A stretch of 64,000 bases of DNA, from the IMG/VR virus record IMGVR_UViG_3300042914_005059, positions 1-64,000 of that record. The stretch is one strand, 5' to 3'. Below the pieces are notes generated by a model. That model was not told the DNA's origin. It saw nothing but the letters and a program-made list of their open reading frames with translations, and did not search any database. The position numbers and the translations under genes are program-made. This document shows, piece by piece, positions 11,313-52,576 of this stretch (positions within the stretch are counted from its first letter, which is position 1; each line of letters starts with the position of its first letter). The stretch is from a virus.

Positions 11313-11657
11313 TTACTTTTGTTTGATTATGAGTTCACCTAAAACTTCTATAAGACCAACTAATTTTTGAAATTCTACTTGTCCCATTTCAACGTTTTCA
11401 GATAAGTCACATAATTCATCTAGATATTTTTTAAATTCTTTTTTTGATTCTTCCAAATCAAATTTACCTTCCATTGCTTTTTTATAGTAAGGTAATTTAA
11501 CTCTAAAATGGTGATAGGTTAACATTGCTGGACCACCTTTTTCTTTTGCATTATTGGTGATTTTTTCCGCACCTTTAAATCTTTTTTCAGCAAAGTCTTC
11601 AAAACTCTTGCTGGTGGCGATTTCTTCTTTTAATATTTTTTTTATAAGATTTTTCAT
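11313..11657 (-). CDS. Small helical protein with capsid-targeting-like N-terminus
   Basis: The 114-residue protein begins MKNLIKKILKEEIATSKSF. Its first 12 residues are nearly identical to those of the array-linked family at 11721, 45865 and 46303, and ILKE-E fits the (L/I)-x-E prohead-protease site. The rest is helical and charged, with a helix-rich C-terminus (FQKLVGLIEVLGELIIKQK) and no catalytic motif. A phage-type promoter motif lies 2-3 nt before the ATG, and it follows directly on the degenerate last repeat of CRISPR-like array A. I infer an internal head protein. Its activity is unknown. Confidence 0.65.
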   Translation of the reverse strand: MKNLIKKILKEEIATSKSFEDFAEKRFKGAEKITNNAKEKGGPAMLTYHHFRVKLPYYKKAMEGKFDLEESKKEFKKYLDELCDLSENVEMGQVEFQKLVGLIEVLGELIIKQK

Positions 11658-11659
11658 AT

Positions 11660-11671
11660 TTTATAAATATC
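11660..11671 (-). promoter_or_regulatory. Phage-type promoter motif joined to array A
   Basis: Minus-strand GATATTTATAAA directly adjoins the last repeat of array A and precedes the ATG at 11657. The same repeat-promoter-ATG junction recurs at 46289-46303. Confidence 0.55.
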
Positions 11672-11772
11672 AGGTCAATACCTTTCGTTTATGGGTCATC
11701 TCCAGCTTTGTACGAAGGGTTTAGCCGATGAAGGCTGCTGTCAATACCTTTCGTTTATGGGTCATCTCCAGC
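11671..11772 (-). CRISPR. CRISPR-like array A: 2 repeats, 1 spacer
   Basis: On the minus strand, repeat 1 (11772-11737) and repeat 2 (11706-11671) are 36 nt and match from GCTGGAGATGACCC through ATAAACGAAAGG to TATTGAC. Repeat 1 ends CAGC, which pairs with the GCTG at its start. Repeat 2 ends CCTG, so its end is degenerate. The spacer 11736-11707 is exactly 30 nt. Repeat 1 is the in-frame 3' end of the gene at 11721-12095, and the stop codon lies in the spacer. No cas gene is nearby. The layout equals that of array B at 46188-46289. Confidence 0.75.
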
Positions 11773-12095
11773 ATACGCACGCATAAGTCTTTGGTTTCCT
11801 GATTGTTAAGACCAAATTTTTGACGTAATTTTAACCAAATTTCATCATAATCAACCCATAAATAAGGATCTTTTTTATCTCTATCCACACTATCCGCCAT
11901 TAAAGTAACCCCGCTTTTATCCTTATATAACATCCAACCTGGATTTTTTTCCGAAGGAACCGCCTTTAAATTGGACATAATTTCATACAAAAATTCTTCA
12001 GCGGGTGAAAATTGTTTGGTGTTACCAACCAATTCTTCTGCCCAATCAAAATCATCAAACTCTTCCCTTAATATTTTTCTTATAAGATTTTTCAT
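11721..12095 (-). CDS. Array-linked small protein, copy A
   Basis: From ATG 12095 the product has 124 residues. The N-terminus MKNLIRKILREEFDDFDW fits a capsid-targeting sequence, with the predicted cut after ILRE. The conserved domain follows: FLYEIMSNLKAVPS, then PGWMLYKDKSG, PYLWVDYDEIW, and a last helix with LCVRMLEMTHKRKVLTA. Near-identical paralogues lie at 45865 and 46303, and a fused version at 47883. The last codons are the first 36-nt repeat of array A, and translation stops inside the spacer (tail AAFIG). The family resembles short T4-type phage proteins of unknown function that end in a helix with LNYQEI. Its start follows the stop of the 129-residue gene at once. Confidence 0.75.
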   Translation of the reverse strand: MKNLIRKILREEFDDFDWAEELVGNTKQFSPAEEFLYEIMSNLKAVPSEKNPGWMLYKDKSGVTLMADSVDRDKKDPYLWVDYDEIWLKLRQKFGLNNQETKDLCVRMLEMTHKRKVLTAAFIG

Positions 12096-12096
12096 T

Positions 12097-12486
12097 TTAA
12101 CATACAATTTTAGCTTTTGTAAAACTATCTAATACATTTATATATAAGTCTTCCCTAATTGGAACAATTAAACTCTCACCATTGTCTAAAAAATCAACTC
12201 TAAATTCCGCTTTAAAAGAACCTGCCTGGTTTACATCTTTAATGTCAAATTGGTAACCTAGATAATATTCACCATCTTCTTTACATAGGGCCTTATCTAC
12301 GGGTAAAAGTAATCCTGCTTTATTAAAAACTTTATAATTACCTTTATCATCTATCATACTGAAGGTGATTGCAGCGTTTTCTAAACGGTCATATATTTGA
12401 CGATAGGTACTTCTACCGTCATTAGTTAATTTTAACTTAACTACCGGAAGTGTGCTGTTCTTACGAATGAAAAAATTTTGTGCCAT
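12097..12486 (-). CDS. Small beta-rich virion protein (likely tail/fibre-associated)
   Basis: The 129-residue product begins AQNFFIRKNSTLPVVKLKL and alternates short beta strands (AITFSMIDDKGNYKVF, EYYLGYQFDI, SFKAEFRVDFL, IVPIREDLYINVL). This looks like an immunoglobulin-like or jelly-roll accessory domain of tail fibres and baseplates. It directly precedes the LamG-type fibre gene in transcription order's downstream direction and has its own phage-type motif upstream. There is no enzyme motif. The virion role is inferred from fold pattern and neighbours. Confidence 0.6.
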   Translation of the reverse strand: MAQNFFIRKNSTLPVVKLKLTNDGRSTYRQIYDRLENAAITFSMIDDKGNYKVFNKAGLLLPVDKALCKEDGEYYLGYQFDIKDVNQAGSFKAEFRVDFLDNGESLIVPIREDLYINVLDSFTKAKIVC

Positions 12487-33774: not shown

Positions 33775-35259
33775 ATGAAAATAGAATTAACCTGCCAACA
33801 TTGTAATCAAAATTTTGAAACTGAATATAAATTTAGGGATAAAAAATTTTGTTCCAGAAATTGCTATTTTGAAAATGCTCGTCAAGGAAAGATAAAAATA
33901 GGCAGAAGTAAAGATAAAACCATAAGAGAAGAAAGAGAATGTAAAGTTTGTGGTACTAAGTTTGAAACTAAAAAAAATCATTTTAAACAATTATGTTCTG
34001 ATGAATGCCGTTTAGTTTGGGGAGAAAGAAAAGATGTTAAAGAAAAAAGATTACAAAACATAAAAAATACCGTAAAAGAAAAATACGGCGTTGACCATGT
34101 ATGGCAAGTAAAAAAAATTCACCAAAAAACAATAGATAACACTAACAAAGAATTATCGGTTAATAAACAAAAAGAAACTGTTCGTCAAAAAACTTTAAAA
34201 AATTTATTACCAAAGTTAGAATCTAATGGTTTAAAATTACTTTCTAATTATACGGCCAACAAAAATGGTAATACATCATTACCGTATGAATTTGAATGTT
34301 TAGCTTGTAATCATAAATTTACTAGTACTTTATTGGGTTGTGGAATAATACCAAGATGTGGTAAGTGCCATCCATCACAGAAAGATTCTAGGCCACAATT
34401 ATTTATACAAGAATTTTTAAATAATAACAACATTAAATATATTCAAAACAATAGAAAAATTATATATCCGTTTGAAATCGATTTTTATTTACCAGACCAT
34501 AATTTAGGTATTGAAATAAATGGTCTTTATTATCATGGTGAGCTTCTTGGTAAGGATAAAAATTATCATTTGAATAAATCAAAAATGACGGAAAAAATAA
34601 ATGTAAAATTAATCCATATTTTTGAGGATGAAATTGTTAATCAAAAAAATATTGTTTTATCTAAACTCTCCCATGAGTTAAAACTTTCAAATATTATTAA
34701 AATAGATGCTAGAAAGTGTGAAATAAAAAAGATATCAAATGAAGTTAAAATTAAATTTCTAGAAGAAAATCATTTACAAGGTGATGCAAAAGATAAAATA
34801 AGGTATGGTTTATTTTATAAAAACGAATTAGTTTCAATAATGACTTTTGGTAAAAGAAAAATAACAAAATCAAAAGAGTCTAATTGGGAATTGATTAGAT
34901 TTTGTAATAAAAGCTATCATTCAGTAAGAGGTGGGTTCAATAAACTACTAAATTATGTTTTAAAAAATGAGGGCATTAAAACTTTTATGACTTATTCTGA
35001 TTGTAGGTGGTCAGGGTTAAACCATGAAAAAACCGTTTACCATAAATGTGACATGAAATTTTTAGGCCTATCAAACCCCAATTATTGGTATTTTAAACCA
35101 TCTTCACAATTAAAAAGGCATCACCGTTTTAATTTTAGAAAAGCAAAATTAATATCAGAAGGTTTTGGTTCTAATAAAACTGAATGGCAAATTATGCAAG
35201 AAAGAGGCTTTGATAGAATCTGGGATTGTGGTAATATGAAATTTATTTATAAAAAATAA
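33775..35259 (+). CDS. EDxHD-like homing endonuclease with GNAT-like C-terminal domain, copy 1
   Basis: The 494-residue protein starts with two zinc-finger-like units (CQHCNQNFETEY...CSRNC and CKVCGTKF...CSDEC). A KEKYGVDHVWQV repeat of the kind seen in phage homing nucleases and a CLACNHKF/CGKC zinc ribbon follow. The nuclease core is FEIDFYLPDHNLGIEINGLYYHGE, then KNYHLNKSK and LIHIFEDE, typical of Vsr-fold EDxHD homing endonucleases. The last about 200 residues (GLFYKNELVSIMTFG, WELIRFCNKS, GGFNKLLNYVL, TYSDCRWSG) look like a GNAT fold. It sits directly behind the sheath gene, so it probably cuts sheath-region alleles that lack it. Confidence 0.85.
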   Translation: MKIELTCQHCNQNFETEYKFRDKKFCSRNCYFENARQGKIKIGRSKDKTIREERECKVCGTKFETKKNHFKQLCSDECRLVWGERKDVKEKRLQNIKNTVKEKYGVDHVWQVKKIHQKTIDNTNKELSVNKQKETVRQKTLKNLLPKLESNGLKLLSNYTANKNGNTSLPYEFECLACNHKFTSTLLGCGIIPRCGKCHPSQKDSRPQLFIQEFLNNNNIKYIQNNRKIIYPFEIDFYLPDHNLGIEINGLYYHGELLGKDKNYHLNKSKMTEKINVKLIHIFEDEIVNQKNIVLSKLSHELKLSNIIKIDARKCEIKKISNEVKIKFLEENHLQGDAKDKIRYGLFYKNELVSIMTFGKRKITKSKESNWELIRFCNKSYHSVRGGFNKLLNYVLKNEGIKTFMTYSDCRWSGLNHEKTVYHKCDMKFLGLSNPNYWYFKPSSQLKRHHRFNFRKAKLISEGFGSNKTEWQIMQERGFDRIWDCGNMKFIYKK

Positions 35260-39270: not shown

Positions 39271-40884
39271 TTATAGAAGATGGGTTTGGGGTTTCCAAAC
39301 CCATTTTTTATTGCCACAATCGTATATTCTGGGTATACCCCTTTCTTCCATTATTTGGTGTTCGGTTTTATTTTTGTCGTAACCTTCAGCAACTAAAACA
39401 TCTTTTCTAAAGTTATATCTATGGTACCTAATTCCGTTTATAACATAAAAATAAGACGGTTTCGAATACCCCTCATACTCAAACCCTAATACTTTATACA
39501 TATTACCATTAAAAAGCCTATTATCAGAAAAAGATAATATTTTTTTAGGGTCATACGTTTTTATAAAAGATTTAAATAACCTAGAAGCCCCACCTAAAAC
39601 ATTGTAATTTAACTTATTACAGAATCTTATCAACTCCCATTCACCTTCAACGTGTTTAGAACCTAAAGATTTTCTAAGCCTACCAAATGTCATCAATGAC
39701 ACTAATTCATCCTTATAATATAAACCTAACTTAACTGAAGAATTAACTTTTCCTTGAATATGGTTTTTATTTAAAAAATCATTATGTTCTTTATTGTCCA
39801 CCAATTTTATCTCACACTTTCTCGCATATATTACATTTTTACCATTAATCCCCAACCTATTTTTTATTAAAGAAGTTACAATGTCTTTTTTAACCTCCCA
39901 TTCATCTTGAAAGATTTGTATTAGATCAACATTTTTAGATTTACAATTTAAATACTTTTTTAAATGGTAATCTTTCTCAACAAAAAATTCATTATGCCAA
40001 TAAACACCATTATATTCTATTGCGATGTTTTTATTAGGAATAAAAACATCCAATTCTTTGGGGGATATTAAGGTTCTATCATTAAGCAAACAATTCCCAT
40101 CGGTTATCTCTGTTATTAATTTTTGTAATTCTTTTTCTTGAATAGAAACTGATTCATTTATTGGGTTACACAACGTACAAGGATTAACACCTACTAAAAC
40201 ACGATATCTAAAACTATTACGATGAATATCATAGTTTTTATTACATGTTTGGCAAAGAATATTTAAAGTATCACCAGTATGTGTTATAAAATTAAATTTA
40301 TCATATTTTTCAATAAAGTATTTTCTTCTAGTATCATGTGTTTTACCCAATACTTCTGGTGTTGATAGGATTGTTGTCTTTCCATATTTTTCCATGTTAG
40401 TTAACTTTTTTCTCTCAGTGACACCTTCAACTTTTGATACATGATCAACACCGTGATTTTTTATAAAGCCATTTTTTACTAATTCTAAATTTTGATATGT
40501 ATTTTCTACACCATACCTTTCTTTATTTGTTTTTTTGATTTTTTTTTGTGTTTCTTCAAATTTACCTAACCAAGTTTTTTTAGATTTTTCAATATGTTCT
40601 TTATTTTTATTAGTACAACTTAAAGAACAATATTTTCCGTATCCTTCTTTTAAACTTCTTTTAAAAATTAATTCTTTATTACATTCTGCACATTTTGGTA
40701 TTTCTGTATATTTATTAATAAAGTGCCAAACTTGTTGTTGAAAAGGTAAATAGTTTAAAGAATTATTTTCAATAAATTTTTTAACTTCTTCATAAATTTT
40801 TGGTTCTTTTTTGGATAATTTTTTTTCGTTGGTTTTCCAACCAGATTTATTATCCATAAAAAATAAAAAATATTCGTTTATCAT
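39271..40884 (-). CDS. EDxHD-like homing endonuclease with GNAT-like C-terminal domain, copy 2
   Basis: From ATG 40884 (MINEYFLFFMDNKSGWKTN) the product has 537 residues. There is a Cys cluster (CAECNKEL...CSLSC), several KYG-type DNA-contact repeats (ERYGVENTYQN, NHGVDHVSKV, KYGKTTILSTPE) and a zinc ribbon (CQTCNKNY...CTLC). The nuclease core is ELDVFIPNKNIAIEYNGVYWHN with LIQIFQDEW. The C-terminal GNAT-like domain runs GLYYKDELVSLMTFG, WELIRFCNKL, GASRLFKSFI, SFSDNRLFNG. It lies immediately before the tail tube gene on the opposite strand. Its last codons overlap the terminator hairpin of the converging gene. Confidence 0.85.
   Translation of the reverse strand: MINEYFLFFMDNKSGWKTNEKKLSKKEPKIYEEVKKFIENNSLNYLPFQQQVWHFINKYTEIPKCAECNKELIFKRSLKEGYGKYCSLSCTNKNKEHIEKSKKTWLGKFEETQKKIKKTNKERYGVENTYQNLELVKNGFIKNHGVDHVSKVEGVTERKKLTNMEKYGKTTILSTPEVLGKTHDTRRKYFIEKYDKFNFITHTGDTLNILCQTCNKNYDIHRNSFRYRVLVGVNPCTLCNPINESVSIQEKELQKLITEITDGNCLLNDRTLISPKELDVFIPNKNIAIEYNGVYWHNEFFVEKDYHLKKYLNCKSKNVDLIQIFQDEWEVKKDIVTSLIKNRLGINGKNVIYARKCEIKLVDNKEHNDFLNKNHIQGKVNSSVKLGLYYKDELVSLMTFGRLRKSLGSKHVEGEWELIRFCNKLNYNVLGGASRLFKSFIKTYDPKKILSFSDNRLFNGNMYKVLGFEYEGYSKPSYFYVINGIRYHRYNFRKDVLVAEGYDKNKTEHQIMEERGIPRIYDCGNKKWVWKPQTHLL
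39280..39309 (+). terminator. Terminator inside the 3' end of homing endonuclease copy 2
   Basis: A 10-bp stem (ATGGGTTTGG 39280-39289, CCAAACCCAT 39295-39304) with a 5-nt loop and T-run ends transcripts of the plus-strand gene at 36780-39257. It lies in the last codons of the convergent endonuclease gene. Confidence 0.85.
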
Positions 40885-40938
40885 ATATTTATAAGTATGA
40901 AACAAATATAATAATAATAAACTAAAAAACAATAAAAC

Positions 40939-41489: not shown

Positions 41490-41512
41490 ACTTGACAACC
41501 AACAAAAAGTCC

Positions 41513-41529
41513 GTATATTTATTAATAAA
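41513..41529 (+). promoter_or_regulatory. Phage-type promoter motif
   Basis: GTATATTTATTAATAAA lies 8 nt before the ATG at 41537. Confidence 0.5.
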
Positions 41530-41536
41530 TAAATGT

Positions 41537-43120
41537 ATGGACTTTTCTTTTTTTACAACAGATAATAAATCTGGTCACAAAACCAAAGAGGTGTGGTTTG
41601 CAAAAAATCACCCCCAAGAGTATGTTGATATAACATCTTATTGTCAACAACATTTAAAATCGGAATCTTCTTTTAAAGAAAAAATATGGTTCTATTTCAA
41701 GAATCTAACACAAAAACCAAAATGCCAATCTTGTAATACCGAAGTTAAATTTTCAGAAAGATTTGACAGAGGATATAATCAATTTTGTTCATTAGAATGT
41801 GCAAACAATAGTGGTTTATTAATTAATAAAATCAAAGAATCCAACTTAAAAAACCATGGTGTTGAGTTTTATACCCAACATAAAGACTTTATCAAAAAAC
41901 GTGATAAAACCAAAATCGAAACTTATGGTAATAAAAACTATAACAACACTGAAAAAATGTTACAAACAAAATCGAAGTTGTACGGAAATAAAAAATATAA
42001 CAATTTTGAAAAGTATAAAGAAACCTGTAATATAAAATATGGGGTTGATAACTTTGTTAAATCGGATGATTATAGAAATTTATTAAGTAATAAGGTTATT
42101 GAACGGTATCCAGAGTTAGAAATTAAAAAAATATCGACTGATTTATCTATGCTTCACATTAAATGTCATAAATGTGATGATGTATATTCTATAACACAAA
42201 ATTTATTACGAGAAAGAAAAAAACATAATTACGTTTTATGTACAAAATGTAATCCAATTGGCATGAGTTTTTCATCATCTTATGAAGATTCATTATGTTC
42301 TATATTAGATGATTGGGGTGTAGAATATGAAAGACATAATAAAATACCTAATTCTTCTCTTGAAATTGATATTTATATTCCATCTATAAAAACTGCCATT
42401 GAATTTGATGGAATTTATTGGCATAATGAATTATATCTTACCAATGATTACCATTTGGTAAAAACTAATTTATGTAAAAAATCTAACATCGAATTAATTC
42501 ATATTTTCGAAGATGAATGGTTGTTTAAACAAGAAACTGTTTTATCTATATTAAAAAATAAACTCAAGTTAATTTCAAACAAAATATATTCTAGAAATTG
42601 TGAAATAAAAAAGGTTACGTCAAACGAAAGTAACCTTTTTTTATCCGAAAACCATATACAAGGAAATGTCTCTTCTACGGTTAAAATTGGGTTATATTAT
42701 AAAGACGAATTAGTTTCTTTAATGACTTTTGGTAAAAGAAATGGTGTTGGTAATAACACTGATTGGGAATTAATTAGATTTTGTAATAAGAAAAATACGA
42801 TTGTGGTGGGAGCGGCCTCCAAACTATTTAATTTTTTTATTAAAAATTTTAAAGTTAAAAAAATCATATCTTACTCAGACAATCGTTGGTTTACTGGTGG
42901 TGTTTACACAAAACTAGGGTTTAATAATTGTGGGTCGACAAAACCAAATTATTGGTATGTACATAACGGTATTAGATATCATAGATTAAATTTTAAAAAA
43001 TCTGTGTTGGTTAAACAGGGTTTTGATAGAAATAAAACAGAAAAAGAAATAATGTTTAATCGTAAAATATATCGTATTTACGATTGTGGTAACATAAGAT
43101 GGGAGTTTTCTAATCAGTAA
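41537..43120 (+). CDS. EDxHD-like homing endonuclease with GNAT-like C-terminal domain, copy 3
   Basis: I start at ATG 41537 (MDFSFFTTDNKSGHKTKE), because the longer frame crosses the promoter motif. The 527-residue protein has a CQSCNTEV...CSLEC zinc unit and NHGVEFYTQHKD and KYGVDNFVKS repeats. A CHKCDDVY/CTKC ribbon and the core LEIDIYIPSIKTAIEFDGIY-WHNE with ELIHIFEDEW follow. The GNAT-like end has GLYYKDELVSLMTFG, WELIRFCNKK, GAASKLFNFFI and SYSDNRWFTGGVY. It is directly behind the tail tube gene. Core residues are intact, so it is probably active. Confidence 0.87.
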   Translation: MDFSFFTTDNKSGHKTKEVWFAKNHPQEYVDITSYCQQHLKSESSFKEKIWFYFKNLTQKPKCQSCNTEVKFSERFDRGYNQFCSLECANNSGLLINKIKESNLKNHGVEFYTQHKDFIKKRDKTKIETYGNKNYNNTEKMLQTKSKLYGNKKYNNFEKYKETCNIKYGVDNFVKSDDYRNLLSNKVIERYPELEIKKISTDLSMLHIKCHKCDDVYSITQNLLRERKKHNYVLCTKCNPIGMSFSSSYEDSLCSILDDWGVEYERHNKIPNSSLEIDIYIPSIKTAIEFDGIYWHNELYLTNDYHLVKTNLCKKSNIELIHIFEDEWLFKQETVLSILKNKLKLISNKIYSRNCEIKKVTSNESNLFLSENHIQGNVSSTVKIGLYYKDELVSLMTFGKRNGVGNNTDWELIRFCNKKNTIVVGAASKLFNFFIKNFKVKKIISYSDNRWFTGGVYTKLGFNNCGSTKPNYWYVHNGIRYHRLNFKKSVLVKQGFDRNKTEKEIMFNRKIYRIYDCGNIRWEFSNQ

Positions 43121-43133: not shown

Positions 43134-43532
43134 ATGATTAGAAATATTATCAAAGAACAATTACTTTTAGAAAGAAAAATTGCACAATTAAAAGCAAATA
43201 TTTTTATTAATTTTAATTTACGTCACGACCCAAGTGAACATTCCAAAAAAAGACAATGGCGTCACGTTGCAGAAAAAGGTCAGGTTATTCATGATGTCGA
43301 TATTCTTAATTTGATACAAAAAGTTTTAGACGATATAACATTCAAAATTGTAGTTAATGAGATTCAAAATAAAGTTAGATTTATTGTTTCTGACACTAAT
43401 TATCCTTTTTTAAATGTTGTTATCGAACCTGAAATGGTTGACCCTTATCAATGGATCTTAAATGTTATCACCGTAATGAATAAAAAAGATTTTGAAATTG
43501 GTCGTGGTCAGTTACAATTATTTGGGAAATAA
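43134..43532 (+). CDS. Small protein with capsid-targeting-like N-terminus
   Basis: The 132-residue protein starts MIRNIIKEQLLLERKIAQL, an amphipathic helix with IIKE-Q and LLLE-R sites. The body has basic residues (RHDPSEHSKKRQWRHVAEKG) and a beta-alpha pattern (VDILNLIQKVLDDITFKIVVNEI, VRFIVSDTNYPFLNVVIEP, DPYQWILNVITVMNKKDF). No catalytic motif is evident. The fold-like pattern may be a small alpha/beta domain. It precedes the candidate ncRNA on the other strand and the operon at 43757. I infer a packaged internal protein of unknown activity. Confidence 0.6.
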   Translation: MIRNIIKEQLLLERKIAQLKANIFINFNLRHDPSEHSKKRQWRHVAEKGQVIHDVDILNLIQKVLDDITFKIVVNEIQNKVRFIVSDTNYPFLNVVIEPEMVDPYQWILNVITVMNKKDFEIGRGQLQLFGK

Positions 43533-43566
43533 AAAAACCCACCAGTATTCTGACCGATGGGCTTCT
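43531..43566. terminator. Bidirectional terminator
   Basis: A 9-bp stem with two G-U pairs (CCCACCAGT 43538-43546, ACCGATGGG 43553-43561). On the minus strand it ends in seven T, and on the plus strand in a T-rich stretch. It ends the plus gene at 43532 and probably the minus-strand ncRNA. Confidence 0.75.
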
Positions 43567-43677
43567 TATTTTTCATCTTTAATATCTGTTAAAGATTGCG
43601 GATTTTCACCGTGTTGTTTCGTCACATTACGTCGATTAAGCTTAAGGGATTAACCGATTCAACCCTGTGTTTTTATT
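43538..43677 (-). ncRNA. Candidate small ncRNA with Bacteroidota promoter and terminator
   Basis: A 224-nt gap without an ORF (43533-43756) holds, on the minus strand, a full host-type promoter (43712-43685) and a terminator at 43561-43538. The predicted transcript is about 140 nt. It can form a 7-bp stem (CGGTTAA with TTAATCG, 10-nt loop), a CGG/CCG hairpin and a CGT/ACG hairpin. It has no ORF of useful length. Its sequence shows no extended complementarity to the CRISPR-like repeats. It resembles no RNA family that I recognise. Confidence 0.6.
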
Positions 43678-43684
43678 TCTTTAA

Positions 43685-43715
43685 CAAAGATACATATAAA
43701 TATTCATTTTACAAA
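43685..43715 (-). promoter_or_regulatory. Bacteroidota-type promoter for the candidate ncRNA
   Basis: On the minus strand TTTG (43715-43712), 19 nt, then TATCTTTG (43692-43685), exactly the host housekeeping spacing. Confidence 0.82.
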
Positions 43716-43733
43716 ATATTTTTAAAATTTATT

Positions 43734-43749
43734 GATATTTATTATAAAA
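43734..43749 (+). promoter_or_regulatory. Phage-type promoter motif
   Basis: GATATTTATTATAAAA lies 7 nt before the ATG at 43757 and heads the operon with caspase-like and Dps-like genes. Confidence 0.55.
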
Positions 43750-43756
43750 TGTTTGA

Positions 43757-44383
43757 ATGAAAAAAATAATCAAATTAACCGAAAAAGATATTCATAAATT
43801 GGTTCAAAAAATTATTAAAGAAGATGACTCCGATGATTATGAATGGGTTCCTAATTTAGATATTAATAGAGCTGAAAAAATTATAAAAAAAAATTGGTTT
43901 CGTTCCGAACATGAATATGGTGTTGATATTGATGATCTTTTTGAATTAATCACTGATAACGGTATTCTTAAAAAGTCTGTTTTGGATGATATTGGAGATG
44001 AATTGTATAACCAATTTGATAGAGCTTATGAGGAAGGTAAAGAATATGCTCGTGATAACTATTGTACTTGTGATGGTTGTTGTGATGATTTCATTTATTA
44101 TGATGATCATAGACAAGAAATTAGAGAAGCACGTGATGAAGCTTATGAAGAAGGACGTAGCAGTGGTTTTGATGACGGTTATGAGGAAGGTAAAGATTCT
44201 AGAGATGACGAGGTTGAAGGTTTAGAATCTAAAATAGAAGAATTAGAAGAAAGAATTACGGACTTAGAATCTGAATTAGAAGATTCTAACTCTGAGGATC
44301 TTGAGGTTGATGAACTGGAATCAAGAATAAAAAAACTACAAGATATATTAAAAATTAAAAAAAATATAAACAATGAATCTTAA
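43757..44383 (+). CDS. Acidic coiled-coil protein with Cys cluster and capsid-targeting-like start
   Basis: The 208-residue protein begins MKKIIKLTEKDIHKLVQKII and then KEDD, with IIKE-D as possible cleavage site. The middle holds YCTCDGCCDDF (four Cys near residue 100) in a very acidic, Glu/Asp/Tyr-rich region (EEGRSSGFDDGYEEGKDSRDD). The C-terminal 60 residues are a coiled coil of leucine heptads (LESKIEELEERITDLESELE). Its stop overlaps the start of the caspase-like gene by 11 nt. It could be a packaged scaffold or partner of the caspase-like protein, but that is inference from position. Confidence 0.65.
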   Translation: MKKIIKLTEKDIHKLVQKIIKEDDSDDYEWVPNLDINRAEKIIKKNWFRSEHEYGVDIDDLFELITDNGILKKSVLDDIGDELYNQFDRAYEEGKEYARDNYCTCDGCCDDFIYYDDHRQEIREARDEAYEEGRSSGFDDGYEEGKDSRDDEVEGLESKIEELEERITDLESELEDSNSEDLEVDELESRIKKLQDILKIKKNINNES

Positions 44384-45497
44384 ACATATTATTTTAGAAA
44401 CAATATTAAATGAAGGTCGTTTACAGGACATTATAAAAAAATATTCTAAATATAATGTCCCAGAAGTTGCTATAAGAGATTTATCAATGGCAGATCCTTC
44501 CGGTAGTAATAAATATTTGGAATGGATGGTTACAGAAGCTTATGAATTAGGTAGTTTTGATGTTGATGTCTTGGAAGCGGTTATTGCGGCAGCCGAATGT
44601 TTCCATAAAAACTTTAACCTTATTAATGGTCGTGTTGCTCAAAAAGCATTAGAATATACCAACATACCTAATGACTTGTATAATAAAATTTTGGCATCAC
44701 CTAGGGATATTAAATTATACACTTTAGAGGCCGTTGAGGATTTATGTTTTTATATTAAATTTTTTATCGATAAAAAAACAGATAAAAGCCGTAAATCAGA
44801 TGTTTTAGGTGGTTATGGTAATTATGGTAATTATGGTAGTTACTTTAAAAATGATAACATAATAGACACTAAATCTTATACACCAGAACAGTTAGAGAAA
44901 CTGTTGACTAGAAACGTTAAAAAAGGTGATACATTAATTATACATCCAGACGATAGAACAACTGATTTTTTAAAACCGTCTTATGCTGGTTTAAATGCGA
45001 CAGTTTTAACAACTAAAGATGATATGTATAATTTAAAAGAAACCATGAAAAATCACAGAAGAATTATATTGATGGGTCATGGATCACCAAGTGGTTTAAT
45101 GTTAAGTATGATTGGGGGTGTTGAAGGTGTGGAATTAAATAGTAGCGGTCAATATGTTAAATATAAACACTACTCCGTTGGTTATGACTTTTTAAATATT
45201 TTAAAAACAAAACCAATTGTTGCTGTTTGGTGTAATGCCGATAGATTTGTGGTCCCGTATGATTTACATGGGTTTTATACTGGTATGGTAATATCGGAAT
45301 TATGTGAGGCAAATTATTGCCAAGTGCACGGTTGTGATGACGCACAATTACAATATTCAAACACTTTATTCACTAAAGCTTTAAAAGCAGCACTACCTAT
45401 AGAATCACCAGAATCGGTTGATATTTTTAAAAGTATTTACGATGCTGATAGAAACCCTATTATTGATTATAACAAACAAAGAATATACTACAGATAA
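44373..45497 (+). CDS. Caspase-like (clan CD) cysteine protease candidate
   Basis: The 374-residue protein starts MNLKHIILETILNEGRLQDI with an ILNE-G site. Residues 40-150 are helical. The C-terminal half has the caspase/CHAT layout: a strand with RRIILMGHGSPSGLML, giving His236, and about 50 residues later KPIVAVWCNADRFV, giving Cys287. This is the His-Gly and Cys dyad of clan CD peptidases. The His-Cys spacing fits. An alternative is another alpha/beta enzyme, but H-G after a strand and Cys after the next strand fit this class best. It is coupled by overlaps to the acidic coiled-coil gene and to the Dps-like gene. Confidence 0.62.
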   Translation: MNLKHIILETILNEGRLQDIIKKYSKYNVPEVAIRDLSMADPSGSNKYLEWMVTEAYELGSFDVDVLEAVIAAAECFHKNFNLINGRVAQKALEYTNIPNDLYNKILASPRDIKLYTLEAVEDLCFYIKFFIDKKTDKSRKSDVLGGYGNYGNYGSYFKNDNIIDTKSYTPEQLEKLLTRNVKKGDTLIIHPDDRTTDFLKPSYAGLNATVLTTKDDMYNLKETMKNHRRIILMGHGSPSGLMLSMIGGVEGVELNSSGQYVKYKHYSVGYDFLNILKTKPIVAVWCNADRFVVPYDLHGFYTGMVISELCEANYCQVHGCDDAQLQYSNTLFTKALKAALPIESPESVDIFKSIYDADRNPIIDYNKQRIYYR

Positions 45498-45868
45498 TGA
45501 AAGGGCAATTATTAATTAATTTTATAACCCTACAAGAACAATTTAGGGTTTTACACTGGCAAACAAAATCTTTTGCCAGACATAAAGCTTACGGTGAAAT
45601 CTATGGTGCTTTTAATGAACTTATCGATGACTTTGTTGAAGTTTACATGGGGAAATATGGTCGTGTTGAATTCACTTCAGGTGAAGGTACCATTGTTTTA
45701 AAAAATACCAATGATTTAGGTTTAAATGAATTTTTAAATCAAAATTTAGAATTCTTAATGTCTTTAAGTAATTCTTTGGATCCACAAAAAGATTCTGATT
45801 TGTTAAACATCAGAGATGAAATGATGAGTCAGATAAATAAATTAAAATATCTTTTAACTTTAAAATGA
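45497..45868 (+). CDS. Dps/ferritin-like small protein
   Basis: The 123-residue protein starts MKGQLLINFITLQEQFRVLHWQT and continues KSFARHKAYGEIYGAFNELIDDFVE. The pattern of His20, His29, Asp44/Asp45 and Glu48 follows the Dps-type ferroxidase site with its HWxT helix. In phages, short Dps-like proteins of this kind occur without a defined role. They may bind iron or DNA and protect against oxidation. Helices follow in the C-terminal half. The gene starts at the last base of the caspase-like gene and its stop overlaps the next ATG by 4 nt. Confidence 0.72.
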   Translation: MKGQLLINFITLQEQFRVLHWQTKSFARHKAYGEIYGAFNELIDDFVEVYMGKYGRVEFTSGEGTIVLKNTNDLGLNEFLNQNLEFLMSLSNSLDPQKDSDLLNIRDEMMSQINKLKYLLTLK

Positions 45869-46242
45869 AAAACCTTATAAGAAAAATATTAAAAGAAGAA
45901 TTTGATGATTTTGGTTGGGCAGAAGAATTGGTTGGTAACACCAAACAATTTTCACCCGCTGAAGAATTTTTGTATGAAATCATGTCAAACTTAAAGGCGG
46001 TTCCTTCAAAAAATTATCCAGGTTTAATGTTATATAAGGATAAAAGCGGGCTTACTTTAATGGCGGATAGTGTGGATAGTGATGAAAAAAATCCTTATTT
46101 ATGGGTTGATTATCGTCAAATTTGGTTAAAATTACGTCAAGAATTTGGCCTTAATGGACAAGAAATCAGTAATTTATGCGTGCGTATGCTGGAAATGACC
46201 CATAAACGAAAGGTATTGACAGCTCAATCGGACTTTGATTGA
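45865..46242 (+). CDS. Array-linked small protein, copy B
   Basis: The 125-residue product begins MKNLIRKILKEEFDDFGW (CTS-like helix, ILKE-E) and has the conserved domain FLYEIMSNLKAVPS, MLYKDKSGLTL, PYLWVDYRQIW and a last helix ending LCVRMLEMTHKRKVLTA. It is over 80% identical to copies A and C by eye. The 36-nt repeat at 46188 encodes its end and translation stops inside spacer 1 with AQSDFD. It is the last gene of the operon starting at 43757. The start overlaps the Dps-like gene by 4 nt. The function of the domain is unknown. Confidence 0.75.
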   Translation: MKNLIRKILKEEFDDFGWAEELVGNTKQFSPAEEFLYEIMSNLKAVPSKNYPGLMLYKDKSGLTLMADSVDSDEKNPYLWVDYRQIWLKLRQEFGLNGQEISNLCVRMLEMTHKRKVLTAQSDFD

Positions 46243-46289
46243 AGTTGATTTGAGCTGGAGATGACCCATAAACGAAAAATGTTAACCTG
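46188..46289 (+). CRISPR. CRISPR-like array B: 2 repeats, 1 spacer
   Basis: Repeat 1 at 46188-46223 (36 nt, GCTGGAAATGACCC start, CAGC end) overlaps the end of the gene. The spacer 46224-46253 is 30 nt and contains a 6-bp inverted repeat (TCAATC with GATTGA). Repeat 2 at 46254-46289 keeps the first 24 nt but its 3' third is changed (AATGTTAACCTG). The phage-type promoter of the next gene begins at 46289. The plan is identical to array A on the other strand. Confidence 0.75.
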
Positions 46290-46301
46290 ATATTTATAAA
46301 A
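46289..46301 (+). promoter_or_regulatory. Phage-type promoter motif joined to array B
   Basis: GATATTTATAAAA directly follows the last repeat of array B and precedes the ATG at 46303. It is the same junction as at 11660-11671. Confidence 0.55.
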
Positions 46302-46302
46302 T

Positions 46303-46674
46303 ATGAAAAACCTTATAAGAAAAATATTAAAAGAAGAATTTGATGATTTTGATTGGGCTGAAGAATTGGTTGGTAATACTAAACAATTTTCCCCCGCTGA
46401 AGAATTTCTTTATGAAATTATGTCCAATTTAAAGGTGGTTCCTTCGGAAAATAATCCAGGTTTAATGTTATATAAGGATAAAAGCGGGGTTACTTTAATG
46501 GTGGATGATGCGGATAGAGATAAAAAAAAACCTTATTTATTAGTTGATTATGATAAAATTTGGAGAAAATTAAATCAAGAATTTCGTCTTAATGAACAAG
46601 AAATCAAAGACTTATGCGTGCGTATGCTGGAGATGACCCATAAACGAAAGGTATTTACAACAGAAACAACGTAA
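46303..46674 (+). CDS. Array-linked small protein, copy C
   Basis: The 123-residue product is a close paralogue of copies A and B: MKNLIRKILKEEFDDFDW, FLYEIMSNLKVVPS, MLYKDKSGVTL, PYLLVDYDKIW and LCVRMLEMTHKRKVFTT. The first repeat of array C (46626-46661) is its 3' end, and the stop TAA lies in the first spacer with tail ETT. Differences from copy B are scattered and often silent, consistent with a recent tandem duplication. The V-F-T-T coding change in the repeat is also present in the non-coding repeats that follow. Confidence 0.75.
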   Translation: MKNLIRKILKEEFDDFDWAEELVGNTKQFSPAEEFLYEIMSNLKVVPSENNPGLMLYKDKSGVTLMVDDADRDKKKPYLLVDYDKIWRKLNQEFRLNEQEIKDLCVRMLEMTHKRKVFTTETT

Positions 46675-46859
46675 CATTCGTGAATAAAGCGGCTGGAGAT
46701 GACCCATAAACGAAAGGTATTTACAACTAGAGATAACCTCAATGGTTAATTGTTTGTGCTGGAGATGACCCATAAACGAAAGGTATTTACAACGGAGATG
46801 CTAGATAACTTAATCCAGCGGTAGCTGGAGATGACCCATAAACGAAAGGATTGAAATTT
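46626..46859 (+). CRISPR. CRISPR-like array C: 4 repeats, 3 spacers
   Basis: Repeats at 46626, 46692 and 46758 are 36 nt, identical to each other, and end TTTACAAC, the 3' end of type VI-B repeats. A fourth at 46824 keeps its first 26 nt and then diverges. Spacers 46662-46691, 46728-46757 and 46794-46823 are each exactly 30 nt and differ from each other. Repeat 1 is the 3' coding end of the gene at 46303. A terminator follows at 46908. There is no other gene in 46675-46928, so this stretch is the array. Confidence 0.82.
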
Positions 46860-46900
46860 TTATCTTAAAAATTAAATTGTTATATTTTTTTTTATAACAC

Positions 46901-46930
46901 AAAAAAAGGGACCTAAAAGTCCCTTTTTTT
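46901..46930. terminator. Intrinsic terminator after array C
   Basis: Stem GGGAC (46908-46912) with GTCCC (46919-46923), loop CTAAAA, A7 before and T7 after, so it works in both directions. It closes the array-C transcript and the converging M20 peptidase gene. Confidence 0.88.
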
Positions 46931-47789
46931 AATCTTCATATCCGTAATCAATTCTTTTTCTGTTATATTGACTACCATATCCATCATTCAGAAGATAACT
47001 ACGTTCTTCTTTTTTGTTTGAGTATTTATTTTCTCCTAAAACCTCAACAAGTTTTAACCCCAATTGATATCCGTTTTCAACATCATCAACAACAACATAT
47101 TCGTTTGCTGTATGATATTGGTAATACCCTGCAGCCAAATTTAAACAAGCTATATCAAATTTTTCAACAATTTGCCAAGCATCGGTATATGGATGATACG
47201 CCCAATTACTAATTCCGTGTTCTTTTATCAAACCAGTTACTTTATCAGCGAATTCTGATTTTTGATTGAACAAATATCTACCCATAAGTGTTAAACTCAT
47301 AGAGTTACCTTCCGGGGAGTCATACTGAATTGCGTAACCAACGTTCTTAAAAAATTCAGGGTCTGCGTGTTGGCTGCCTCTACAACCAATTTCTTCAGAA
47401 ACAAAAAAGGCAACTTTAACATTTGGTAAGGTGCCCAACATTTCTAAAGCCAAAAAAACACCACACTTATCATCACCACCAATTCCCGTTGGTTTTCCGG
47501 TAACACAATCAACACCTTTAAGAACGGTTTCACCTTTTTGGTACCCTTCAACTACGGTTAAATTTAAATTAACTTTATGAACCGTGTCGGTGTGAGCAAT
47601 AAAACAAGGATAATTTTGGCTTTCACCTTTGGTGGCATAAATATTACCATGTTCATCGGTGTAATGTTGATATCCTTTTTCGGTTAAAACTTTTTGGAGG
47701 TATTCAATCATTAACTTTTCATCTTGTGAATATGTTGGTATCGATAATACTTCTTTTAATCGGTTAAATTTTTCTTCTGTCATTTTCAT
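46929..47789 (-). CDS. M20-family metallopeptidase (lid-less, peptidase T-like)
   Basis: I start at ATG 47789 (MKMTEEKFNRLKEV), just downstream of the host-type promoter. The 286-residue protein has the M20 zinc-site pattern: FIAHTDTVHKVN (His-x-Asp), GIGGDDKCGVF (bridging Asp), FFVSEEIGCRGS (Glu-Glu pair) and YYQYHTANEYV near the end (His). It is about 100 residues shorter than typical M20 peptidases and lacks room for the dimerising lid domain. Such enzymes remove amino acids from peptides or similar amides. Its host promoter points to early or constitutive expression. The gene converges on array C. Confidence 0.82.
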   Translation of the reverse strand: MKMTEEKFNRLKEVLSIPTYSQDEKLMIEYLQKVLTEKGYQHYTDEHGNIYATKGESQNYPCFIAHTDTVHKVNLNLTVVEGYQKGETVLKGVDCVTGKPTGIGGDDKCGVFLALEMLGTLPNVKVAFFVSEEIGCRGSQHADPEFFKNVGYAIQYDSPEGNSMSLTLMGRYLFNQKSEFADKVTGLIKEHGISNWAYHPYTDAWQIVEKFDIACLNLAAGYYQYHTANEYVVVDDVENGYQLGLKLVEVLGENKYSNKKEERSYLLNDGYGSQYNRKRIDYGYED

Positions 47790-47809
47790 TTTGTGCACAT
47801 TTTAATATA

Positions 47810-47840
47810 CAAATATAACGATAAAAAATGATTTGGCAAA
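47810..47840 (-). promoter_or_regulatory. Bacteroidota-type promoter for the M20 peptidase
   Basis: On the minus strand TTTG (47840-47837), 19 nt, TATATTTG (47817-47810). It is a full host housekeeping promoter. The coding start is about 20 nt downstream. Confidence 0.82.
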
Positions 47841-47857
47841 ATTTTTTTAAAAATTAT

Positions 47858-47873
47858 AAATATTTATTTAATA
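47858..47873 (+). promoter_or_regulatory. Phage-type promoter motif
   Basis: AAATATTTATTTAATA lies 9 nt before the ATG at 47883, back to back with the M20 host-type promoter. Confidence 0.5.
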
Positions 47874-47882
47874 TTAAATAAA

Positions 47883-49157
47883 ATGAAAAAATTAATTCAT
47901 AAAATTCTGTTACAAGAGGCTTTAAAACCATCCCAATTTAGAAATTACGTTAAAAACTTTAATCGTGAAAGATATGTAGATATTTTTAAAAAATTAGGTG
48001 ATGAATTTGAACACGATAGAAATTATTATCGTATTTACATACCATTAGGAAAAAAAGAAAAATCTGGCCCTGTTTCTAACGTTGAAAAAGAAGTTACCGA
48101 TTTTTTAACTAAAAATGGTTATCAAGTTTTAGACTACATCAAAGGTATTACTAAATTTGGTGATGCCAAAAATACAACCTCTATCGGTAAAGTGTTAACA
48201 AGATTAAAAGCCGATGATTTAATGAAAAAATTTGTTTCCGATGAAGCAAGAAAAGCTTTAACCTCTGATATCGATAATTTAATGGTTGTTATTTCTCGCC
48301 ATCCTTATGATATTGCAGGTTCTGATACCGATAGAAATTGGACTAATTGTATGACAATAGGTCACGCTAGTTCCAAGCGGGTTGAGACGTTACATAACCA
48401 GTTGAACTCCTTAAATGATAAATTAAGTTCTTTACAAAAAGAAGACCCAAATTATGTTAATATTTTAAAAAAAATAAAAAATTTAAAATCTGAAATTGAG
48501 GACAGAAAAGAAGAAGGTCAAAACGTTAAATATTTAATCCATGAAGTTAAAGAAGGTTCTTTAATTTCTTATTTAATCAATAAAAATGATAAAAATATCA
48601 ATAACCCTTTAGCTGTATTAAATATTAAACCATATATAAACGAAAAAAATCCTGATGATTTTGTTTTGGTGTCTAGTAATGAAATGTATGGAAATGGTAG
48701 GCCTGAATTTAAATCTACAGTCAATTCTATTTTAGAAAAAATTAACGGGGATGTTACTGGTCTTTATTGTATAAACCCAAAAACATATAAAGATTCAGAT
48801 TCAGAAAAAATCTATGTACCCACCAAGGAAGAAAAAGAATTAAGATACAAATTTTTGTATGAAATCATGTCCAATTTAAAGGCGGTTCCTTCAAAAAAAT
48901 ACCCAGGTTGGATGGAGTATAAGGATGAAAGTGGGGTTATTTTAATGGCGGATAATGTGGATAGAGATGAAAAAAAACCTTATTTATGGGTTGATTATGA
49001 TGAAATTTGGTTAAAATTAAATCAAAAATTTGGTCTTAACTATCAAGAAATCGAAGCCTTATGCGTGCGTATACTGGAAATGGTTCATAAACGAAAGGTG
49101 CTGACAGCAGGTCTCTCTCGACGAGGATTTTCTTCGAACACTGGAAATGGTTCATAA
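47883..49157 (+). CDS. Chimeric array-linked protein, copy D
   Basis: The 424-residue protein begins MKKLIHKILLQEALKPSQF (CTS-like, ILLQE-A). Residues about 50-320 form a separate domain with ISRHPYDIAGSDTDRNWTNC near residue 138 and LIHEVKEGSLISYLI, a pattern I have seen in T4-like phage proteins of unknown function. From residue 324 the chain is the array-linked domain (FLYEIMSNLKAVPS, MEYKDESGVIL, PYLWVDYDEIW, LCVRILEMVHKRKVLTA). The last part continues through repeat 1, a spacer and into repeat 2 before stopping (tail SSNTGNGS). It is a fusion of a large protein with the small family. Confidence 0.7.
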   Translation: MKKLIHKILLQEALKPSQFRNYVKNFNRERYVDIFKKLGDEFEHDRNYYRIYIPLGKKEKSGPVSNVEKEVTDFLTKNGYQVLDYIKGITKFGDAKNTTSIGKVLTRLKADDLMKKFVSDEARKALTSDIDNLMVVISRHPYDIAGSDTDRNWTNCMTIGHASSKRVETLHNQLNSLNDKLSSLQKEDPNYVNILKKIKNLKSEIEDRKEEGQNVKYLIHEVKEGSLISYLINKNDKNINNPLAVLNIKPYINEKNPDDFVLVSSNEMYGNGRPEFKSTVNSILEKINGDVTGLYCINPKTYKDSDSEKIYVPTKEEKELRYKFLYEIMSNLKAVPSKKYPGWMEYKDESGVILMADNVDRDEKKPYLWVDYDEIWLKLNQKFGLNYQEIEALCVRILEMVHKRKVLTAGLSRRGFSSNTGNGS

Positions 49158-49308
49158 ACGAAAGGTGCTGACAGCCTGGTTTAAATTTATCTGATCTGAT
49201 GTAGAACTGGAAATGGTTCATAAACGAAAGGTGCTGACAGCGTGGCCTCTTAAGAACTTTTTATATTATTGAGCTGGAAATGGTTCATAAACGACATCTT
49301 TTGAGAAA
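49073..49308 (+). CRISPR. CRISPR-like array D: 4 repeats, 3 spacers
   Basis: Repeats 49073-49108, 49140-49175 and 49206-49241 are 36 nt and identical. Compared with arrays A and B they share the changes ATGGTT for ATGACC and GTGCTG for GTATTG, and the first base A for G. The fourth at 49273 starts GCTGG, keeps 22 nt and then degenerates. Spacers are 31, 30 and 31 nt, with different sequences. The array overlaps the end of the chimeric gene. 49309-49363 holds only AT-rich sequence before the convergent helicase gene. Confidence 0.78.
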
Positions 49309-50782: not shown

Positions 50783-52576
50783 TTATAAAAAAACCCATTT
50801 TTTATTACCACAATCATATATCCTATATATTTTTCTTTCTAACATGATTTGGTGTTCTGTTTTATTCGAATCATAACCCTCTTTAACTAAAATATCTTTA
50901 CGATATTTAAACCTATGTTCTCTATTTAATTTTTTAACATAAAAATAGTTTGGTTCTGTATTTGAAACAAATTTAAATCCTAGTTTTTCATACAAATCTC
51001 CATTGAAATATCTTCTATCTGAATAAGATATAACTTCTTTTGGTTGGTAATTATTTAAAAAAAATTTAAATAATTTATTTGCACCACCTATAACATTAGT
51101 ATTCAGTTTATTACAAAACCTTAACATTTCATATGTACCATTTTTTTCTTTAAAACCTAAAGATTTCCTTAACCCACCAAAGGACATTATAGAAACTAAT
51201 TCTTCACCACGGAATAATCCTAATTTAATTTTGGCATTAACATAACCCTGTATGTGATTTTTAATACAAAAATCTTTATATTCTTCTAGTGAAATATTTC
51301 TAACTTCACATTTTCTTGCGTATATTTTATTTGGTGTTAAATTTAACTTGTTTTTTATTATTGACAGTACTATTTCTTTTTTAAACAACCATTCATCTTC
51401 AAATATGTGAATAAGTTCAACACCTTCTTTTTCACACAATTTAGTTTTATTTAAGTGATATTTTTTATCACAATGTAATTCATTATGCCAATATATTCCG
51501 TTAAACTCTATAGCAAGATTGTTATCAGGAAATAATAAATCTAATTCTAAACCTTTTAATAGTTTTCTATTGTTTTTTTCAATATTAATATTTTCTTTTT
51601 CTAATATGTTAAACAAATCCATTTCTGGTGAACTATAAAACGTTCCGTAGGGGTTACAGTTGGTACAAATTATTTTATCATCATTACCTCTCATCACCAT
51701 AAAATGTCTGTTAATGTTAGTTTCTTTTTCACATTTTTTACAAAAAATATTACAAAAATCCCCTTCAATTTTATTTACAATAATATCACTACCGTATTTA
51801 TATTTAGATAAACAATTTTCTAATTTTTTTCTGGATATTTTTATCCTAATATCAGGACTTTTTAAAATATTATCAACACCGTATCTATCTAAACTAGTTT
51901 GTTTGTATTTTTCAATATTATTGTAATTTTCGTCATCATAACGATTTAATTTTGTTTTTTTGGTTTTTAATAAAGTGACATCCCAGTTATTATTTTTAAT
52001 TAAATTATCAATAGTTTTTTTATGTATAACGCTTGATTGTAACCCATGTTCAACTCCATGACGTTCTATCATTGTTTTTTTAGTTTTGTCCTGAATCTTT
52101 TTTGAGTTTAAAGGCCTTTTAACACCGTATTTATCTAAATTAGTTTTTTCGATTTTTTCTTTAACAATATTTGAACTAAGGGCATGTTCTGTGCCATATT
52201 TTTCCAAATTAGTTTTTTTAGTTTTTTCTTTTATTAAACTATTAGTCATTGGGTGCCCTCCGTATTTTTTTTCAAAAGTCTCTTTAGTTTTTTTTTTAAT
52301 ATCTGGATCTGATGACTTGCACTCTAAAGAACAATAGGTTCGATAACCTTTTTTTATATTTTCAAATTTAGTTTCGTTACCACATATTTTACAGTTTTTA
52401 CATTCTGATTTGTTTATATAAGACCAAACTTTTTCTTTAAAAGGTTTATTTATGTTTTTTTCTGTGGCATAAGTAATTATTTCATTATATAACTTTTGAT
52501 TTACATTTTTTAATGTTTTTTCTTTTAATAAAGAACCGTTTTTACTAGATAAAAAATAATTTAATAAATTTTCCAT
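50783..52576 (-). CDS. EDxHD-like homing endonuclease with GNAT-like C-terminal domain, copy 4
   Basis: The largest of the four, 597 residues. After the N-terminal helix and a CKICGNET...CSLEC unit it has at least six tandem DNA-contact repeats: KYGGHPMTNS, KYGTEHALSS, KYGVKRPLNS, RHGVEHGLQS, RYDDENYNNI and RYGVDNILKS. They are about 20-30 residues apart and each is preceded by a Lys-Thr-rich helix. A zinc ribbon (CKKCEKET...CTNC) and the nuclease core LELDLLFPDNNLAIEFNGIY-WHNE with LIHIFEDEW follow. The GNAT-like part has GLFRGEELVSIMSFG, GGANKLFKFFL and SYSDRRYFNGDLYEKLGF. It lies before the gp26-like gene on the opposite strand. Confidence 0.87.
   Translation of the reverse strand: MENLLNYFLSSKNGSLLKEKTLKNVNQKLYNEIITYATEKNINKPFKEKVWSYINKSECKNCKICGNETKFENIKKGYRTYCSLECKSSDPDIKKKTKETFEKKYGGHPMTNSLIKEKTKKTNLEKYGTEHALSSNIVKEKIEKTNLDKYGVKRPLNSKKIQDKTKKTMIERHGVEHGLQSSVIHKKTIDNLIKNNNWDVTLLKTKKTKLNRYDDENYNNIEKYKQTSLDRYGVDNILKSPDIRIKISRKKLENCLSKYKYGSDIIVNKIEGDFCNIFCKKCEKETNINRHFMVMRGNDDKIICTNCNPYGTFYSSPEMDLFNILEKENINIEKNNRKLLKGLELDLLFPDNNLAIEFNGIYWHNELHCDKKYHLNKTKLCEKEGVELIHIFEDEWLFKKEIVLSIIKNKLNLTPNKIYARKCEVRNISLEEYKDFCIKNHIQGYVNAKIKLGLFRGEELVSIMSFGGLRKSLGFKEKNGTYEMLRFCNKLNTNVIGGANKLFKFFLNNYQPKEVISYSDRRYFNGDLYEKLGFKFVSNTEPNYFYVKKLNREHRFKYRKDILVKEGYDSNKTEHQIMLERKIYRIYDCGNKKWVFL

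Follow-up and report, generated by a model that had tools for sequence, protein, structure and literature searches.

Clustered regularly interspaced short palindromic repeat (CRISPR) arrays of small size, termed mini-arrays, are already known from viruses, in which they lie behind non-coding leaders or are leaderless, and published viral mini-arrays match the repeats of hosts, as far as the accessible part of the source goes (PMC6858448). The mini-arrays of the Sulfolobales viruses SPV1 and SPV2 are intergenic and have host-like leaders and repeats; several of their spacers match related viruses, and because the spacers at a given place vary between related viruses, the authors infer active turnover (PMC6858448). 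A survey of RNA anti-CRISPRs focused on solitary repeats in intergenic regions and set arrays aside (PMC10651486), and a review of CRISPR in mobile elements covers mini-arrays and single repeats, none of them mentioned inside genes in the accessible part of its text (PMC11656645). Here, we analysed a stretch of 64,000 nucleotides (the window), which is part of the 69,806-base IMG/VR virus record IMGVR_UViG_3300042914_005059 of a T4-like phage and carries CRISPR-like arrays attached to a family of protein-coding genes. In the phage, by contrast, the arrays start within genes, are found again in many paralogues and are not the same at loci whose flanking sequences are almost identical.

Like the arrays of SPV1 and SPV2, as described in the accessible part of PMC6858448, those of the phage are short, lie in virus sequences in which no cas genes were found (Cas1, Cas2 and Cas9-REC were sought, in fragments) and carry spacers that differ at the same place. 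Unlike them, they have a coding gene in the place of the leader, their first repeat is protein code, and neither a host repeat nor a target was found with the repeat patterns and spacers searched. The sequence-only reading, an earlier note on the window, knew of no described system in which an array is seeded four times in coding sequence; the literature searched (titles and beginnings of abstracts, with preprints and supplements outside its scope) likewise held no such array, and the claim of novelty reaches as far as that search.

In total, the window contains four arrays (A, B, C and D) with 12 repeats and 8 spacers, each unit consisting of a 36-nucleotide (nt) repeat and a spacer of 30 or 31 nt. 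Repeats start on the plus strand at 46188 and 46254 (A), at 46626, 46692, 46758 and 46824 (B) and at 49073, 49140, 49206 and 49273 (D), and on the minus strand at 11772 and 11706 (C). A 21-nt repeat core, with at most 3 mismatches allowed, gave 12 matches in the window compared to 0.01 expected from shuffles. The genes and arrays are as follows.

45865-46242, plus strand: gene A of the array-bearing family, 125 amino acids (aa), stop codon in spacer 1
46188-46289, plus strand: array A, with repeat 1 at 46188-46223 (coding), spacer at 46224-46253 and terminal repeat at 46254-46289
46303-46674, plus strand: gene B, a paralogue of 123 aa
46626-46859, plus strand: array B, 4 repeats (first coding, last degenerate) and 3 spacers of 30 nt
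46902-46930, plus strand: candidate terminator 3' of array B, a G+C hairpin and T-run read by eye
47883-49157, plus strand: gene D, 424 aa, another N-terminal part fused to the family domain (48852-49109)
49073-49308, plus strand: array D, 4 repeats (first coding, last degenerate) and spacers of 31, 30 and 31 nt
11721-12107, minus strand: gene C, 128 aa from a TTG start or 124 aa from an MKNL start at 12095
11671-11772, minus strand: array C, with repeat 1 at 11772-11737 (coding), spacer at 11736-11707 and terminal repeat at 11706-11671

According to the sequence-only reading, the first repeat of every array is the coding C-terminus of one paralogous family. The frames confirm this for all four arrays: repeat 1 lies in frame at the end of the open reading frames (ORFs) 45865-46242, 46303-46674, 47883-49157 and 11721-12107(-). 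The stop codon falls in spacer 1 in A, B and C and in repeat 2 in D, again as described. Arrays A, B and D lie within the range 46188-49308 to which that reading assigned the pattern; array C on the minus strand (11671-11772) lies outside it. At the far ends, the terminal repeats of A and C merge into the upstream element of the next gene (in A, the degenerate 3' end continues into the upstream element of gene B), that of B merges into the stretch preceding the terminator-like hairpin and that of D into the old gene tail. The N-terminal part of gene D resembles phrog_17056, a family of unknown function (expect value (E) 4.5e-8).

Protein and DNA searches of IMG/VR yielded 14 further records, 15 with the window's own, which are distinguished below by handles such as G001. 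Eleven of the 15 contain 31 full copies of the family domain (three short extra matches were dropped) and 27 arrays of at least 2 repeats (2-5 each); as several of these 11 records are near-duplicates, the number of distinct arrays is 20. In 27/27 arrays, repeat 1 is in frame of a family gene and the gene occupies the position of a CRISPR leader, just as claimed for the window. The expectation that the 3' ends of homologues are followed by the same repeats held for 27 of the 31 domain copies and failed for four: G002:83026 and the D orthologue in G007, G008 and G009, the latter two called array-free by pattern only. Outside arrays, core matches in the 15 records were found only at the three D sites and at single sites in G013 and G014, which speaks against the chance association that repeats in unrelated places would have indicated. 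With these two exceptions and the D sites left aside, no repeat match outside arrays was longer than 14 nt in a list of the 15 best. The association of domain and array is thus not due to chance, and the domain is able to exist without an array; the anatomy first described holds, except that arrays are missing from some members of the family. The repeat-like 21-nt sites of G013 and G014, one each and without a domain, were taken as chance. No other array with a period of 45-90 nt was seen in the records.

The protein family appears narrow: an alignment-based search using 16 domain copies gave no further members, and tblastn gave no homologue of protein A in the phage collection. Of the 20 distinct arrays, 10 have the end of the frame in spacer 1, 6 in repeat 2 and 4 further on, with protein tails of 3 to 49 residues behind repeat 1, some of which read through two or three repeats. 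Since only 10/20 distinct arrays stop in spacer 1, such a stop is no rule, and selection for an in-frame stop in that position was rejected. An assembly chimaera is unlikely, because G000 and G001 have two arrays in identical form and others recur with clean flanks across contigs of several metagenomes.

The spacers amount to 37 unique strings, or 35 when two pairs differing by one base are merged, and their lengths hardly vary (26 spacers of 30 nt, six of 29, three of 31 and one each of 28 and 32 nt). Near-identical direct repeats alternating with unique spacers of nearly constant length, as seen here, are what characterises a CRISPR array. The spacers have a mean G+C content of 0.417, whereas pieces drawn at random from the carrier contigs have 0.302, with 0.364 as the maximum over 10,000 such means; as the value exceeds that of the carriers, the spacers look foreign. 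Outside the arrays, the fetched records contain no convincing copy of any spacer, the best-scoring match covering 15 exact bases (E 0.009). To our knowledge, CRISPR adaptation is the sole process that places foreign pieces of near-constant length between duplicates of one repeat. Since we know of no other process for such spacers, the arrays are taken as mini-CRISPR arrays with a coding leader. We consider it rather probable that they are virus-borne, carry a protein-coding gene in leader position and are filled by host Cas1-Cas2 in trans. The spacers were also tested as coding snippets; 62% of their frames are open compared to 57% (sd 2.7) in shuffled sequences, a weak hint that was not used. 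Spacer s12 (G001 81226, L051) contains a GGGGC...GCCCC inverted repeat, seen by eye.

The spacer content differs between loci that are otherwise nearly the same. At locus C, the flanks in G000/G001 and G003 are 98.4% and 99.8% identical with zero common spacers, and the same holds for G001:72471 and G003:48316 with flanks of 100% and 99.2% identity. At one locus with flanks of 99.7-99.9% identity, G004-G006 carry s32 and G010 carries s36 and s37; the shared spacer (s32/s37) is gene-distal in the longer array of G010 and the extra spacer gene-proximal. Likewise, where G001 has s9, G002 has s20, s21 and s9 with the extras gene-proximal, at loci that are not clearly orthologous. In both comparisons the extra spacers thus lie where insertion at the leader end is expected to place them. 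The terminal repeat differs from the first within the last six bases in 20/20 distinct arrays, in some by one base only, which agrees with the degenerate leader-distal repeat of CRISPR arrays.

The D orthologue of G007, identical to gene D of the window in 1042/1181 aligned bases, has a single repeat-like site and no array, and its protein runs into its own C-terminus. The downstream flank of this site re-aligns behind the terminal repeat of array D in the window. Compared to the G007 site, that terminal repeat and its tail lack about 25 bases; because of this shortfall, the G007 form is no mere collapsed copy of array D. The repeat at the D locus was probably protein code before it became an array. 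Since an empty orthologous site exists, the system provides a natural case for the birth of new CRISPR arrays.

Several codons of the coding repeat and of the stretch directly in front of it are seldom used by these phages, namely CTG (74/6543 Leu codons, 1.1%), CGA (150/2647 Arg, 5.7%), GTG (346/4789 Val, 7.2%), AAG (622/6762 Lys, 9.2%) and TGC (88/904 Cys, 9.7%), as counted over 191 ORFs of at least 200 aa in pieces of G000-G003, some of which are near-duplicates. This suggests that the nucleotide sequence itself is under selection or was copied. TGC, GTG and CTG also occur at the array-free D site, CGA and AAG do not. Conservation of synonymous sites was set aside as not decisive: the MTHKRK block shows no synonymous difference and another domain block likewise; codon rarity is the better test.

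The encoded protein gave few hints on its function. A Pfam search with proteins A and C gave nothing at E up to 1. For A, the predicted fold (mean predicted local distance difference test (pLDDT) score of 82) consists of two low-confidence N-terminal helices, followed by a helix, four strands and two helices, and the repeat-encoded part would start within the last helix. Foldseek returned four uncharacterised proteins of uncultured phages with 7-16% identity to the A model, only the best of them with E below 0.001; none from the PDB was found at E up to 0.001. Matches of protein A to phrog_6047 (E 0.15) and of protein D to DruC (E 0.016) were too weak and were not used. Capsid-targeting tags of T4 end in (L/I)xE, and the N-terminus MKNLIRKILKEE resembles such a tag; by this resemblance, the family proteins may be packaged and injected. 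An (L/I)xE at residues 7-17 is found in 50/171 ORFs of G000 and G002 compared to 11.8% of internal windows. Tag-like (L/I)xE starts occur on many proteins (in the window at 43134-49157, 53706 and 11313-12107, and in G002), suggesting a large set of injected proteins.

Could the protein itself run a phage-specific system without Cas proteins, by binding a repeat RNA that overlaps its own 3' end, with the spacers as guides or regulators? A similar layout is found in tnpB, where guide RNA and gene end overlap, and the linkage between domain and repeat is strict (27/27 arrays), persisting where domain and array sit together on different N-terminal parts (D and G002:69357). Such a system gives no source for foreign spacers of near-constant length, 4/31 domain copies do without an array, and proteins A and C match nothing in Pfam, nor the A model any solved structure, at the thresholds given above; we regard it as improbable. 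With a 36 + 30 layout and one spacer per unit, the arrays also differ from TIGR-Tas, the unit of which is dual-spacer. The shared trait is that interspaced guide arrays occur in phages, as far as the accessible part of PMC12045711 describes them.

Several results weigh against mini-CRISPR arrays filled in trans. No protospacer was found in IMG/VR (19-25-nt pieces of 5/37 spacers), in the phage collection (19/37 spacers, searched within natural array stretches) or in plasmids (8/37 spacers). Matches inside spacers in the phage collection had E of 3 or worse, and in a BLAST search of five spacers against phages, with 47/47 records listed, those touching a spacer had E of 3 to 9. Spacer s22 has a 19-nt match in two contigs, but the match extends to only 20-21 of 30 bases and was taken as chance rather than as a protospacer; the scan with s20 missed even its own contig, as the stored stretch probably ends inside s20. 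Profiles of Cas1 and Cas2 had no match in the 11 records, all of which are fragments, nor had Cas9-REC, for which the control was weak. Two exact repeat patterns had 0 matches in 84,980 species genomes, although the host may be unsampled. A hairpin in the repeat is not clearly conserved: its z-score is −2.99 in the commonest first-repeat variant, +0.12 in B, +1.17 in D and −0.42 to −1.83 in four others, and 94% of cells pair, yet shuffles pair as well in 155/500 and covary as well in 113/500 cases. The third shared spacer, s34, shows no clean polarity. Finally, the genes too differ at loci with near-identical flanks, along with the arrays, so that whole-cassette recombination contributes to turnover.

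This last point, together with the tyrosine recombinases (Phage_integrase) in G001 (105145-105945, L072, E 2e-39) and G002 (107956-108762, L078, E 6e-36), fits arrays that are by-products of recombination without guide function, either because duplicated gene ends act as homology arms for cassette shuffling or because units are copied from host arrays. Recombination with host arrays was suggested for leaderless phage mini-arrays in the accessible part of PMC6858448. Yet duplication alone yields no unique spacers of about 30 nt and foreign composition between 36-nt repeats, and copying requires a host array with this repeat, none of which was found in the 84,980 species genomes with the two exact patterns; we consider this origin very improbable.

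The missing protospacers of the tested spacers and the high number of repeats in each genome (12 in the window; 22 core matches in G002) would suit RNA decoys, whose repeats mimic those of host CRISPR arrays and whose transcripts jam a Cas effector, the spacers being non-guiding by-products of adaptation. As with RNA anti-CRISPRs, CRISPR-repeat-like sequences lie in phage genomes and repeat RNA could load a host effector. Published decoys, however, are solitary and were sought in intergenic regions, as far as the accessible part of PMC10651486 goes, whereas the 27 arrays here have 2-5 repeats each, with multiple and differing spacers, and no host repeat of matching sequence turned up with the two exact patterns. 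We regard pure decoys as unlikely. The survey would probably not have reported gene-embedded arrays, given its intergenic focus and the exclusion of arrays, and scans of that kind could overlook them (PMC10651486).

As to how mini-CRISPR arrays with a coding leader might arise and act, we infer the following route, from the integrase and its host origin through transcription and processing to effector and purpose. Leader and first repeat would both be provided by the 3' end of the gene. Beside the coding repeat, a CRISPR integrase, most likely host Cas1-Cas2 in trans, would insert about 30 nt of foreign DNA, and every insertion would duplicate the 36-nt repeat. Because insertion takes place beside the gene, repeat 1 would always stay coding, and the protein would receive from the newest spacer a C-terminal tail that is new and dispensable. 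The transcript of the gene would include the array as a 3' untranslated region, and the repeat-spacer RNA processed from it would engage an effector of the host, whether to guide it against rival elements or to act as a decoy. Why should a phage offer the ends of its own genes as landing sites for a host integrase? It might thereby acquire a memory, the records of which are deployed via the host effector, an idea that we put forward tentatively and with some doubt. If true, a single contig would record foreign DNA in as many as seven of its genes, the gene product would gain a new random tail with every acquisition, and a protein-coding sequence would be a working CRISPR leader and repeat. A CRISPR integrase would be able to adopt coding sequence as a lasting insertion site, and a phage to tolerate or exploit the integrase at its own genes. 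If host adaptation in trans is true, a host CRISPR with the same repeat should exist, adjoined by a leader resembling TTATGCGTGCGTAT.

Upstream of the gene at 47798, a TAnnTTTG-like site was noticed by eye; as TAnnTTTG is a promoter motif of Bacteroidota, it hints at a host from this phylum. Type II-C and VI-B CRISPR systems of Flavobacterium/Bacteroidota have 36-nt repeats, and the short CRISPR RNA of VI-B, 66 nt with one 36-nt repeat, equals the period found here (PMC8092290, PMC8209922). The array B repeat starts with GTTGT when taken from the opposite strand, with the gene at the other end, and GTTGT is likewise leader-distal in F. columnare. No sequence relationship to II-C or VI-B was established; neither Cas9-REC nor a host nor a trans-activating CRISPR RNA (tracrRNA) was found (Cas13b was not sought), and no second repeat copy stands out as a tracrRNA candidate.

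TATAAATA, which lies behind arrays A and C on the opposite strand, was considered as an antisense late promoter. Among 156 upstream regions its complement TATTTATA occurs in 28, ATATTTAT in 47 and TATAAATA itself in 9; since TATTTATA belongs to the sense element of the next gene, the idea was dropped. ATATTTAT, present in 47/156 upstream 60-mers (G000, G002) and often located at positions -13 or -22 to -28 relative to the start codon, is a possible phage promoter or start element. The record of the window carries T4-type tail genes, comprising a sheath protein with less than 60% identity to its matches, a match to the T4 baseplate (E 5e-11) and one to the tube that falls under the curated cut-off. 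The ORFs 33775-35259, 39271-40932, 41492-43120 and 50783-52576 (about 490-600 aa) have C-terminal halves that look alike by eye (…IHIFEDE… or similar) and possibly form a homing-endonuclease-like family among the structural genes.

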